Shown here: one piece after another, positions 3,581-9,033 of the stretch
Numbering within the stretch: the stretch's first letter is position 1
Layout: every line of letters begins with the position of its first letter
Origin: an uncultured Prevotellaceae bacterium
GTDB taxonomy: Bacteria > Bacteroidota > Bacteroidia > Bacteroidales > Bacteroidaceae
Assembly: GCA_900318115.1 (NCBI GenBank)
Contig: ONJJ01000007.1
Span: 62,001 to 126,000, forward strand
DNA: 64,000 nucleotides
Direction: 5' to 3'
Translations under genes and position numbers: made by a program
Notes under the pieces: generated by a model
Told to the model about the DNA's origin: nothing
The model's database searches: none
The model's input: only the letters and a program-made list of their open reading frames with translations

Positions 3581-3613
3581 AGAATACTTATATTTTGTTA
3601 TGGTATGCGGGTC

Positions 3614-3799
3614 TTATTCCTCGAAGATGCTTTCGCCGAAGAAGTTGCCTTCCTTGACGTCGGCTTCCATGGGAATTTCATTCCCTGTGCCCTGTGTGAT
3701 TCCGGAGTTACCGCCCACGCCAGTGATGCTGGCGGCAATCATCGTTTCTGTCTGCACGTGGTGTACATACACTGCAGGAGTCATATATGTCTTTTTCAT
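3614..3799 (-). CDS. Small conserved-type Bacteroidales protein, 61 aa
   Basis: The protein begins MKKTYMTPAVYVHHVQTE, has a hydrophobic/Gly-rich centre ('MIAASITGVGGNSG') and ends in an acidic tail ('GNFFGESIFEE'). From memory, many short Bacteroides/Prevotella proteins share the MKKxYxxP start and acidic end; their function is unknown. It lies 28 bases after the stop of the giant gene on the same strand and before a strong hairpin, so it is probably co-transcribed with it. No signal peptide with a cleavage site is visible. It could be a peptide precursor or a small partner of the giant surface proteins; nothing here decides that. It is chosen as a gene rather than a shadow because of its start motif, strand and spacing. 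Confidence 0.7.
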   Translation of the reverse strand: MKKTYMTPAVYVHHVQTETMIAASITGVGGNSGITQGTGNEIPMEADVKEGNFFGESIFEE

Positions 3800-3827
3800 A
3801 ATTGCGTAGAATTAGATATTTATGAAT

Positions 3828-6800
3828 TCAATCTCCCTTTCCCCTCCCACACAGGGGAGGGGTCAGGGGAGAGGCCTTTATTTTACGATCACTTTCTTGC
3901 CGTCCGTTCTCTGCGGCTTCACCGTTGATCTCGCTGATAGCGGTCTCGATGCCACCGATGAAGAGCTTGACTTCGCCACCAACTTCTTCCTTAGCCTGGA
4001 GGAATGCGCGGAAGCCCTTCATGTTCGTGTTGCCGGCACTCTTATAGAGTGCATCGTTGCCAACGAACCAGATACCCTCTGCGAGGGTGATCTTACCACC
4101 GTAGTTACCTACGAAGTCGAAGTTTGTGCCCTCGACCTTGGCAGCACCCGTCTTGACGGTTACGTCGTCAACCTTAATCTCAGTAGCTTCCTTTGAAGCC
4201 TTGACGAGGACAGGAACGTTAGCTTCAATGGCGGTAGTAGTCTTGTTGAAGTTTACGGTGGTGTTGTTAGCATCGCCTTCGTCGCTGTAGCTATAGACCT
4301 CAGCTTCGTCACCGAATACTTCCTTCACCTGAGCCTCTGTGAGGTTGAAGGGCAGGGCAACCGTGTTGTAGCCAACCTTGGAGGTGCGAGCCATCGTGAC
4401 GTTAGCTCCCTCTATGTCAGCCAGTGCGCTGAAGGCCTGAGCCTCGTTCATAGCAACGTTGATGCTTTGTCCGTAGTAATAGAGCTGGAAGTTATCGAAG
4501 ATGGTCCAGTCGCCGTCAACATGAGTTTTGGTGCTCTTGAAACCGAACTTCAGGTCGCCTTCTACAGCGGTGAGTACGCTGTTCCAATAGTGTCCGGCCT
4601 TGAAAGCCTGGGCTGCACCGTTCATGGAGTTCGCATAATAAACAGTACCATTGTTGCTGTCGTTGCCATTCTGCCACTGGTGGTCAGCGTCCGTTGCACC
4701 TTCGCTCACGAGGTTCTTAATCGTGGTCTGGCCTTCGTTGATGTAGATAACGGAGGATACATTGTTCGTGCCAGCCTGGTATGCGGTATAGACGGCATTC
4801 CACCATCCGGGACGCTGGAAGGCCTGAACCTTCAGTTCGTAGTTACCCTTAGGCATACCGGTAAGAGTCTGATTGATGTCAAACTCAGTCTGATAGTATT
4901 CGCAGTTGGTGTAGCTCTGGAAGCCAGGAGCGGGATTGGCTGTCCAACCGGTAGCATTGTTGTTGTCAAAGCTGGGGTTGGTGATGAGGAAGGTGATGTC
5001 GAAGGGATGAGCGCCGTCGCTGCGGACGCCACCAATAAAGGTCTTACCTGCAGTCTTCAGTGCGGTTACCTGTTCGGCAATAGCTTCAGCTGTGGTTGCG
5101 GCATTTACAGCCTCGTCAGCCGCTGCAACTGCTGATGTCAGAGTGGTAGTAGCACCGCTTGTGGTTTCAGTATAACCCTCAACGCTCTTCAAGGCCTCGA
5201 CCTTAGTCTTCACAGAGAGGTATTCTGCATAGGGAGCCACGAGAGCCTTAGTATTGGTCGTGGCAGTGGTTATTGCATTGATAGCAGCCAGGAAGTCAGC
5301 CTTCTTCGTATATGTCTTGTTGTTCTCTGTTACAATGTTTGTGAGATTTGCATATGCAGGAGCAGGCACGGAACCCTCTACCACTTTATTAGCTTCGGCT
5401 ATGGCAGCCTCCAGTTGCTCTTGATAAATGGAATAGTTAGGAGATCCATAGTACTTCAGTGTGAAGTCGCGGAAGATGGTCCACTTGTCGGTCTCGGTGT
5501 CCTGATTTTCAATACCGATTTCGACATTACCAGCTTCTTCAATGAGGAACTTCAGGGCAACTTTGCCATTCCCATTGTCGAAATAGGTCTTGGCTCCTGC
5601 CATATTGTTCACGACATCGCTACCTACGCCAGGAATGAGTATCTTATCTTCGCTGGCATAAAAATAGGTGCTGTGGTTGCCAGCACGGTGGAAGCCAGTT
5701 ACGCCGAATTCCCAAGTGCCAGCAGACAAATTCAATGTTTGATAGAACTTGAAGTTCTGCTGATAGAATTCAGTTTCTTCGTTGGCAACCTTACCATTGC
5801 TCTGCCCTTGGGTCACACCGTTGGGATTCTCTATTGTCCAGCCATCCGTGGTTTGACGGACAGAAGGATTTGTCACAAAGAAGTTGGTGACATCAAAGTA
5901 GGCACCCTCGTTGAGTGTCACTGATGTAATGAATGTTTCAACAGCAGCAGTCAAACCAGAAGAAGCTGTGGTCACGTCAGTTGCATTCAGCTTCTCATCA
6001 ATAGCATCGAGTACAGCCTTGAGGGTAGCTTTAGCATTGCCTGCATCGGCATAGTCGGTCTGATTGTAGATAGCCCATGCACTCTTGGTGGGCATATAGG
6101 CTGCGACCATTTCAGAGGAAGCGTAGGTGGCAACAGCAGTGTTAATTGCATTGGTAGCAGCCTCATATTCCTCGAGCGTGGAATAACTACCTTCGTTTGT
6201 TTCGACGGCTTCCTTAATCTTTGCGTATGCTGCAGCGGGAATAGTGGTCTTATCTACAGTATTGGCTGCTGTCACGGCCTTGTCCAAGTTGGCCTTAGCG
6301 AGGTTGATGGGGTCCCCATAGTAGATGAGGGAGAATGAGCGCCAGCACATCCAGTGGTCACCAGTTGTGTTGTCGGCAATCAGACCGATTTCAAGGGATT
6401 CTGTAGCCTCGTTAAGAGTGAAGTCGAGTGTGTTCACACCATTGCCAGCAGCAATCCAGTTGCTACCTTGAGTGCGATCGTTCACACTGCCGCAACCTAC
6501 GAGCTTGACTGTATTCTCACCTGCATAGAGCGTAGCAGTCATGTTGTCGCGTGTATAAGCGATAGCAGTCAGAGTATATGCGCCTTTAGGCAGATTGGAT
6601 AAGGTCTGCTTAGTTGTTCCGGCACTGACTTGCCAATATTCATAAAGTTGAGCTTGCAGGGTGGGAGAACCGGAATTTGTCCAGCCGTCCATATTGCCGC
6701 TGATGCCAGGAGCGGGGTTTGTAATCCAGGCATTGGTGATGTCGAAGCCAGAAGTGATGATAATGCTGGAGAGGAAAGTGTTGCCAGCAGCGTACACAGC

Positions 6801-7592: not shown

Positions 7593-7640
7593 TTGTTGTT
7601 TTAATTAAGTTTGAAGAGATAATGTTGTTAATTAGTATTT
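7593..7640 (-). promoter_or_regulatory. Conserved leader of the 1254-aa gene
   Basis: Nearly the same bases precede the ATG at 3338. The shared part covers about 35 bases up to the start codon and differs by one T in a run. Confidence 0.55.
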
Positions 7641-7689
7641 GATGTTATGTTTAGTTTGTTTATGGGGCCAAAGTCATTGACTTAGAGCG

Positions 7690-7697
7690 CAAAGGTA
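7690..7697 (-). promoter_or_regulatory. Bacteroidetes -7 box TACCTTTG
   Basis: It matches TAnnTTTG on the minus strand about 98 bases upstream of the ATG at 7592. It is the likely promoter of the giant gene and the 61-aa gene. Confidence 0.55.
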
Positions 7698-7800
7698 TGT
7701 TTTTTCCTTTGATGCCGCAAATATTTTGCCCTCTTTTTGATGAAAATGAGTGATTTATTGACGAAAGGGTAGGGTGAGGACCGAAAAGATGGTAGATGGA

Positions 7801-7842
7801 AGCCCCTCAACGGCTCTCCCCGTGGGGCGGGCGATTGGGGCT
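7801..7842. repeat. Nested GC-rich palindrome
   Basis: AGCCCC at 7801-7806 pairs with GGGGCT at 7837-7842 around an inner CCCCGTGGGG palindrome at 7818-7827. It could fold as a cruciform or RNA hairpin. Confidence 0.5.
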
Positions 7843-7849
7843 GCGTAGT

Positions 7850-7941
7850 GGGGGAGGGAAGGGGGATGAGGGGAGAGGAAGGAGGAGGGGAGAGGGAAGG
7901 GGATAAGGGGGAGGATGGTAGAGGAAGGGGGAGGGGTGTGT
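7850..7941. repeat. Polypurine tract, left
   Basis: About 90 bases made almost only of G and A on the plus strand, with repeated GGGGGA and GGAGGGG blocks. This composition can form triplex or G-quadruplex DNA. It mirrors a similar tract on the other side of the 590-bp element. Confidence 0.7.
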
Positions 7942-7991
7942 GAAGAGTGCAAGTCGTTTGGCGTTCGTGGTGCTCGGTGCTCGAATTTTGT

Positions 7992-8580
7992 GCGCGCGCG
8001 TAATAAATTTCGCGAAAAAATCTCGGAATCTTACGCATTTGGCACTTTCTTTGCTGATATGTAGAATGTTATGATGCGTAAGATTATGCGTAAGATTTGA
8101 GTTTTTGCGTAAGATTTTTAGGGCTTAGACGCTATTAACCTCTCCTATAGGTCCTTGGGCCGATGGGAGGTCGTAGGGGTGCGGGACGAAGTCCGTCGTG
8201 GCGGAAGGCCTTGGTCATGCGTATTTTCGAAGGGCAAGATGGGCGCGCGTCGGGGTGTACCAGCAGTGGTACTCAAAAGTACCAGCGGTGGTACTCAAAA
8301 GTACCAGCTCTGGAACTCGAGAGTACCAGCTCTGAGATGGAGGTGGTACGGCGGGCGAGGTTGAGTCGGGAGGCAGAGATGGTGGCGAGGTCAGTCGGGA
8401 GGCTTGTGTGCTGGTCGGCACATGGAATCTTGGGGAATTGGTGGAGTTTGCGGAAAAATCTTACGCAAAATAACGAATCTTACGCATAATCTTACGCAAT
8501 GGAATGCGGTGTATATCAAGCTGTAAGGTTCTAAATGCGTAAGATTCCGAGATTTTTCGTGAAATTTATTACGCGCGCGT
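7992..8580. mobile_element. 590-bp MITE-like element with long terminal inverted repeats
   Basis: The outer 49 bases at 7992-8040 are the inverted copy of 8533-8580, with two mismatches and one one-base gap. Inside them, 8074-8119 is an imperfect inverted copy of 8454-8499. The arms therefore span about 128 bases per side and are unlike flanking DNA. The decamer GCGTAAGATT occurs eight times without mismatch: inverted at 8027-8036, 8457-8466, 8476-8485 and 8488-8497, direct at 8076-8085, 8088-8097, 8107-8116 and 8537-8546. The layout is mirror symmetric. Each end carries an alternating CG run. The core (8120-8453) has a 22-bp array and no credible gene. A non-autonomous transposable element is the simplest reading; an iteron-like protein-binding locus is an alternative. 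No clear target-site duplication was seen. Confidence 0.7.
8257..8344. repeat. 22-bp tandem array of palindromes
   Basis: Four units of exactly 22 bases start with GTACCAGC at 8257, 8279, 8301 and 8323. The first two contain the palindrome GTACC-six bases-GGTAC; the third has GGAAC and the fourth has decayed. The array sits in the core of the 590-bp element. Confidence 0.8.
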
Positions 8581-8614
8581 GTATGAGAGGGCGTTGTGGT
8601 GGGGGGAGATAGAT

Positions 8615-8635
8615 GGAGGCGGACGAACCGCCTCC
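8615..8635. repeat. Mini-hairpin GGAGGCGG-ACGAA-CCGCCTCC
   Basis: A perfect 8-bp stem with a 5-base loop. Its core GGCGGACGAACCGCC differs by one base from 36506-36520, so it belongs to a dispersed hairpin family. Confidence 0.6.
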
Positions 8636-8651
8636 CACTCGACCCAAGGCA

Positions 8652-8750
8652 GGACGGAAGAGGGGAGGAGATGGAAGAGGGGGAGGAGAGGGAAGAGGGG
8701 GAGGAGAGGGAAGAGGGGGAGGTCGGAGGAGGGAGGAAGGAATTGGGGGG
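8652..8750. repeat. Polypurine tract, right, with 18-bp tandem repeat
   Basis: The unit GAAGAGGGGGAGGAGAGG repeats at 8674-8691 and 8692-8709, with a partial third copy at 8710-8722, inside a G/A-only stretch of about 100 bases. Confidence 0.75.
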
Positions 8751-8761
8751 AGCGCGGGTGG

Positions 8762-8870
8762 ATGGATGAAATAAGGGAACGCGGGCGGTGATGGATGAAA
8801 TAAGGGAGCGTGGGCAGAGGGAGGGAAGAGGGGAGGTCGGGCAGATGGATGAAATATGGGGAGCGCGGGC
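8762..8870. repeat. Three copies of a 25-bp ATGGATGAAATA repeat
   Basis: Copies at 8762-8786, 8791-8815 and 8845-8870 share ATGGATGAAATA, then GGGA and a GCGYGGGC end. No coding role is apparent. Confidence 0.7.
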
Positions 8871-8895
8871 AGAGGGCGGTTCTGCTGCGCTCCCC

Positions 8896-8970
8896 GTTCA
8901 GCCTGAGGGAAGGTGGCTGAAAAGAGGTTGATGTTGATGAGAGGTTGTTCAGCCTGAGGGGAGGTGGCTG
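8896..8970. repeat. Two direct copies of a 24-bp repeat
   Basis: GTTCAGCCTGAGGG-A/G-AGGTGGCTG occurs at 8896-8919 and 8947-8970 with one difference, just downstream of the stop of the 9034-11496 lipoprotein gene. Confidence 0.7.
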
Positions 8971-9033
8971 TTTTGGCCTTGAGGGAAATTAGGCTTTACT
9001 TATTTTATTTGTAGTATTTATGGGCTACATGGT

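Follow-up and report, generated by a model that had tools for sequence, protein, structure and literature searches.

A gene-less element with mirror-placed multi-site arms in an uncultured Prevotellaceae bacterium, probably derived from a helicase-encoding VapE element

Main finding

The window, i.e. the whole 64-kb stretch of DNA analysed here, carries a gene-less member of a family of helicase elements that we did not find described in the open PMC papers. We consider this locus to be a non-autonomous, MITE-like derivative of a helicase-encoding element, whose arms would be assembly sites for an element protein, and we give this reading a probability of roughly 60%; its derivation from a VapE element, taken on its own, is well supported and highly probable. 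The support comes from arms common to gene-less and gene-carrying forms, a near-constant site geometry, a retained palindrome array, an internal deletion seen in a sister lineage, several copies per genome and presence/absence between species.

Architecture of the window element

The decamer GCGTAAGATT has eight exact copies in the window, all clustered at 8027-8546 and mirror-placed as the original prediction had described them, in the order R F F F / R R R F. A chance or low-complexity origin was ruled out, since 100 dinucleotide shuffles of the 64-kb window gave a mean of 0.09 copies (largest 1) and the 11-mer TGCGTAAGATT, read backwards, has 0 occurrences in the genome of origin. Nested inverted repeats of 27, 33 and 45 bp (7993-8019/8553-8579, 96%; 8016-8048/8525-8557, 91%; 8075-8119/8454-8498, 91%) enclose a core of 334 bp. 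We take the two outer pairs together to be the 49-bp terminal inverted repeats predicted originally. On both sides the sites are placed at offsets 0/+48/+60/+79, matching the geometry of the family (Table 1). The unit of the central array, a feature absent from the original prediction, is a 16-bp palindrome, GTACCA-N4-TGGTAC.

Table 1. Features of the gene-less element in the window
Feature	Position	Strand	Remark
Left alternating GTGCGCGCGCG run	7990..8000	.	Probably just outside the element
Gene-less element proper, between TAATAAATTT termini	8001..8571	.	Likely terminus, inferred from compared arms
Left arm, outer site R	8027..8037	-	Exact in 11/11 arms of the genome of origin
Left arm, site F1 (+48)	8075..8085	+	Exact in 11/11 arms of the genome of origin
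Left arm, site F2 (+60)	8087..8097	+	Exact in 8/11 arms of the genome of origin
Left arm, site F3 (+79)	8106..8116	+	Exact in 9/11 arms of the genome of origin
Central array, GTACCAGC-TGGTAC palindromes, 22-bp period	8257..8338	.	Last units imperfect
Right arm, F3 mirrored	8457..8467	-	
Right arm, F2 mirrored	8476..8486	-	
Right arm, F1 mirrored	8488..8498	-	
Right arm, outer site R mirrored	8536..8546	+	
Right alternating CGCGCGCGTG run	8572..8581	.	Probably just outside the element

The element, which likely ends at TAATAAATTT, measures about 570 bp (571 bp between the termini of Table 1), i.e. less than 1 kb, and has no recognisable gene: as predicted, nothing coding was found inside, the four overlapping ORFs (68-118 aa) having no Pfam match at E<=0.01. 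Rfam returned no family at gathering score over 7600-9000, and the reading as a known structured RNA was therefore dropped. The alternating CG runs described at both ends are indeed present and self-complementary. Such runs lie outside 12 of the 20 ends of the window lineage, against a background of 70/4861 and 76/3778 overlapping windows (1.4-2.0%), and could be either favoured targets or a part of the element ends. Strongly purine-rich (GGGGA) intergenic DNA flanks the element (window positions 7780-7950 and 8600-8880).

Copies in the genome of origin and in a second species

A DNA search of the genome of origin with 671 bp returned 32 pieces. The element is not unique, a point on which the original prediction had staked itself: five two-armed copies (C37, C38:3603, C40, which is the window copy, C42 and C45) and one half copy (C38:122578) were identified, and every arm match found in this genome belongs to a gene-less copy. 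The 11-mer TGCGTAAGATT occurs 41 times in its 3.33 Mb, 40 of them within the six element copies. Over the 11 arms, the mean pairwise identity is 92% in the site columns versus 56% elsewhere in the arm.

Outside this genome, a BLAST search with the arms gave no match in 60 relatives, and the tandem-site pattern of the window was present in two of the 139 genomes of the genus, the genome of origin and that of a second species (G123). In GTDB r220 the pattern was retrieved in two records, RUG11694, taken as G123, and a Victivallales record (L042), which was set aside as a presumable chance match, resembling part of a coding sequence. G123 carries the same elements, so that the arms are conserved together elsewhere: it has gene-less copies with two arms at C29, C31 and C79, while C69 holds a half copy and C16 a long one. 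The C31 copy is orthologous to the C37 copy of the genome of origin, with common flanks on both sides, and in this pair 110 of 110 site columns are identical versus 394 of the 429 others, 45 gap columns being set aside. Neither arm of the C42, C29 and C79 copies has the F site at +60. Repeats of a GTCTCGAATTCATG-like sequence are located beside the half copy and its ortholog (L032 3350-3540 and L065 3430-3570), and the C42 copy (L033 3230-3340) directly follows what looks, from its motif, like the 3' end of a group II intron.

The full element and its proteins

In G123, the same arms surround two genes in an element of 3.1 kb (L064, approximately 3587-6707), with a palindrome array between the genes. 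The original prediction had pointed to a transposase gene carrying the same ends; a gene carrier does exist, but a transposase was not recognised in it. Instead, it encodes DUF6078 (145 aa) and a larger protein of 703 aa that combines BT4734-like_N and VapE-like domains (ORF 4426-6537; PF08800 and PF05272 above cut-off). No transposase was detected in these two proteins by Pfam, NCBIfam or PHROGs, and no DDE transposase of the Tn7/Mu type; NCBIfam gave no match for either, and in PHROGs the second protein matches DNA helicase and primase families. Among solved structures there is one convincing relative, 7pds ('Similar to D. nodosus vapE'). It was matched at E 0.00026 in a search whose next hits were three beta-glucosidase sequences at E 0.91, and at 3.4e-11 with a profile. 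The VapE protein is under purifying selection, with a dN/dS of 0.136 between G123 and G155 and of 0.14-0.27 over four pairs.

Of the 139 genomes of the genus, 94 have homologs of the L064 BT4734-N/VapE protein, some of which are partial. The canonical motif I of AEP primases (hhhDhD/E, as defined in PMC5862659) is lost in all 27 proteins of the arm-type group and kept in 14 of the 15 others, the exception being L131. DUF6078, a protein of uncharacterised function that might conceal a nuclease, was found in 18 of the 42 loci. Since arms occur with the BT4734-N/VapE gene even where DUF6078 was not detected (L088, L090, L091, L168 and L182), we infer that BT4734-N/VapE is the reader of the sites. 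The 5.39 million open PMC papers covered yielded no description of such elements, no paper with DUF6078, and no tested function or flanking sites for the homologs of the L064 BT4734-N/VapE protein.

Arm architecture across BT4734-N loci

Forty-two BT4734-N loci were compared, 27 of them from the genus and with an L064-like VapE (best hits or paralogs), and 15 others, namely 14 from other genera of the order and L135 from the genome of origin. In seven loci without an ORF similar by phmmer to the L064 or L091 VapE, the ORFs were picked by hand, and the gene may there be another ATPase; the inverted-arm test covered the 35 loci in which the VapE ORF was found automatically. Inverted arms of at least 30 bits, the threshold of this test, surround VapE in 20 of the 35 loci: 20 of the 27 from the genus and none of the eight from elsewhere in the order; one of the 27 (L166) has an upstream flank of only 71 bp. 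For 150 mismatched pairs the median was 20.2 bits and the 95th percentile 32.8 bits, a value exceeded by 19 of the 35 loci; the high-scoring pairs of this control (42.8, 42.8, 56.3, 75.2 and 112 bits) are probably elements sharing a site.

The arms follow the order R, F, F, F, with offsets near 0/+48/+60/+79 in most lineages, a comparison for which the R and F sites were chosen by hand in each lineage. The site sequence itself varies by lineage (TGCGTAAGATT, TGCAGTAGATT, GGTGGCAGTTT, GGTGTAGGTTT and others), and these sites look like variants of one ancestral motif. A detector that knows the geometry only, and in which a flank passes when at most 2 of 100 Markov-shuffled flanks do as well, recognised at least one flank in 23 of the 27 genus loci versus 4 of the 15 other BT4734-N loci, and both flanks in 14 of 27 versus none of 15. 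Neither the arm test nor the geometry test is passed by L087 and L089; L086 fails both, and L090 fails the geometry test; by eye, weaker arms were seen in L086 and L174, and one arm only in L171 and L173. Three loci from other genera with a canonical primase motif (L123, L125 and L128) have inverted sites with the same spacing downstream of VapE (0/100 shuffles each), perhaps an older form of the arm.

Gene-less derivatives of a second site lineage and the palindrome array

The GGTGGCAG arm pattern was found in six of the 139 genomes (three of 139 for the reversed control). After removal of overlaps, G162 has 11 distinct arms and G120 has eight; the single match in G114 may be due to chance. 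Sixteen GGTGGCAG loci were inspected: two arms were seen in L238, L239 and L253, whose outer sites lie approximately 450-550 bp apart, and the other 13 show one arm in the stretch examined, several being cut by contig ends. L239 retains VapE residues 658-705, the last 48 codons, beside its right arm, and is thus an internal deletion; no VapE remnant was found in L238 or L253. No recognisable piece of VapE or DUF6078 is left in the window lineage's eight two-armed gene-less copies, so that a deletion origin is direct only in this other lineage.

The palindrome array is present in all 11 two-armed gene-less copies and in both half copies checked, with imperfect units in L031, and at least one perfect palindrome lies between the genes in 15 of the 18 loci with DUF6078, both being raw counts. 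Since gene-less copies retain the array, it is probably needed in cis. GTACCA-N4-TGGTAC arrays were also observed without arms, behind genes (L035 2608-2690, L036 2310-2370, L218 ~658-710 and L069 1915-1975), that of L036 perhaps inside a reading frame.

Evidence for mobility

The element copies sit in unrelated flanks. Empty sites in relatives, which would speak for mobility, were found in part: the element is absent at the compared loci, but no site is clean. In G123, the two flanks of the C45 copy are separated not by the element but by about 0.9 kb of other sequence, and the trpS loci of G000, G003 and G127 are without the L064 element; at neither locus was a clean insertion junction or a target duplication seen, and the flanks carry further changes. 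The original alternative of a non-autonomous mobile element or a protein-binding locus thus came close, as copies and a gene-carrying relative were found, but no transposase was recognised and no target-site duplication could be shown; both halves of this alternative may be true.

In G162, six of the 11 arms are no more than 460 bp away from the end of a contig, which is what recent repeats would lead one to expect. The arms of L244, L247 and L249 agree up to GAAATTATTATA and then diverge, L244 and L247 having more similar DNA in common further out. A boundary between L248 and L251 was dropped as an element end, these two loci being orthologous.

In viral collections, the window pattern was found in no IMG/VR contig; a scan with one protein gave no relative and a scan with an alignment gave seven, of which the three examined (L256, L257 and L259) show no clear arm pair. 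The relatives in plasmid and phage records are below 60% identity, and the one plasmid examined (L255) has no arms. Six human-gut 'Bacteriophage sp.' records were checked, and three have inverted arms above 35 bits: L265, with 107-bp arms (81%) and the geometry test passed in both flanks, and L254 and L264, with 50.9 and 38.3 bits and the geometry test failed. L263 and L266 pass the geometry test in one flank and are without strong inverted arms, and L267 scores 30.1 bits and fails the geometry test. The arm architecture therefore exists in an independent data set. L254, L264 and L265, in which VapE lies between inverted arms, are deposits from human stool and may be bacterial elements instead of phages.

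Proposed mechanism and alternative explanations

The arms are likely binding sites of the element's own protein. The full form consists of arm, (DUF6078), palindrome array, BT4734-N/VapE ATPase and arm. The primase-like N-terminal domain, having lost its canonical metal motif, may act as the site-binding domain, and the ATPase would form ring helicases on the two ends of the element. Unwinding and replication would start from these ends, and the element would be copied elsewhere, with gene-less copies served in trans by the element protein. The bold part is the movement itself, which we infer to be driven by a helicase without a recombinase. It is a tentative proposal, and rather less probable than not in our judgement, that these elements represent a recombinase-free class of transposable elements, in which a degenerate primase-helicase binds origin-like mirror arms and copies the element and its derivatives in trans, the specificities of arm and protein co-diverging. 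A point against our reading is that the gene-less copies of the genome of origin keep perfect sites despite VapE relatives only 32-36% identical to that of L064 (in an assembly 87% complete).

The sites probably read by the VapE protein follow a near-constant geometry, and copies of the form arm-array-arm offer natural minimal substrates. Should the helicase prove to move the element, the result would be mobility without a known recombinase; otherwise, a replication-type origin would have turned into a dispersed chromosomal site.

The conservation of the sites bears on an explanation that we regard as unlikely, in which the gene-less copies are immobile chromosomal binding sites with a host role (for example organising the DNA, controlling genes nearby or trapping mobile-element proteins). 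The identical site columns of the C31/C37 pair, the site identity among the 11 arms and an orthologous single arm of G162 and G019, with no change in 120 bp versus 16 in the adjoining 311 bp, would all suit such a role, as would the frequency of single arms in the GGTGGCAG loci, several of which are cut by contig ends. Conserved sites in orthologous gene-less copies are not expected of idle passengers, and leave room for a host role. Nevertheless, the site-conservation test amounts to one orthologous pair, the element is absent at the compared loci in relatives, the lineages of the element gene have different site sequences, and the tandem-site pattern of the window occurs in so few genomes of the genus.

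Being short, multicopy and gene-less with inverted ends, the window element might also be a MITE of the ordinary kind, mobilised by a conventional transposase whose gene lies elsewhere, with the VapE genes as cargo. We consider this improbable, given that multi-site arms of about 110 bp surround VapE genes in many species, that neither Pfam, NCBIfam nor PHROGs finds a transposase in the full element, and that the search of the genome of origin for arm matches gave only gene-less copies. The position of the left arm upstream of the first gene in full elements could suggest that the arms are operators of the VapE gene and the gene-less copies decayed remnants; a mirrored arm is, however, present downstream of the last gene, and both arms are intact in gene-less copies at unrelated loci, which makes operators very improbable. 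A MITE-like derivative of a helicase-encoding element remains our preferred reading.

Comparison with known systems

The window element resembles MITEs in being shorter than 1 kb without a coding gene, in its inverted ends and several copies, and in sharing its ends with a gene carrier, here in another species (L064). It is called MITE-like rather than a MITE because this carrier has no transposase match, only DUF6078 and BT4734-N/VapE being matched. As to the parent family, L064 has a gene with PF08800 and PF05272, and the window copy, without such a gene, has arms that fit the geometry. REP/RAYT systems also have palindromes in intergenic DNA, but no Y1 transposase was found among the few proteins tested here (the L064 proteins and the window ORFs). 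Tn7 and Mu have several protein-binding sites at each end, and their multi-site ends are alike to the arms described here, whereas the full element is without a recognised transposase.

BrickBuilt, a MITE of Porphyromonas gingivalis, is likewise gene-less, multicopy and intergenic, with inverted ends and central repeats; its ends measure 12 bp and resemble those of IS5-family elements, and its tandem repeat is 23 nt long, whereas the window family has multi-site arms of about 110 bp, matching a VapE element, and a 22-bp palindrome array (PMC4596501). VirE-type ATPases have been predicted to be helicases of mobile elements in a study in whose text the term 'inverted repeat' is absent (PMC5862659). 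By Pfam, the gene of the full element belongs to the BT4734-like AEP family with VirE/VapE ATPases (PF08800, PF05272), whereas arm-bearing members are without the canonical primase motif I. The origins of papillomavirus E1 and SV40 T-antigen have mirror-placed short sites, read by a DNA-binding domain fused to a ring helicase. The elements described here share this layout but differ in having two origin-like arms that bracket the gene.
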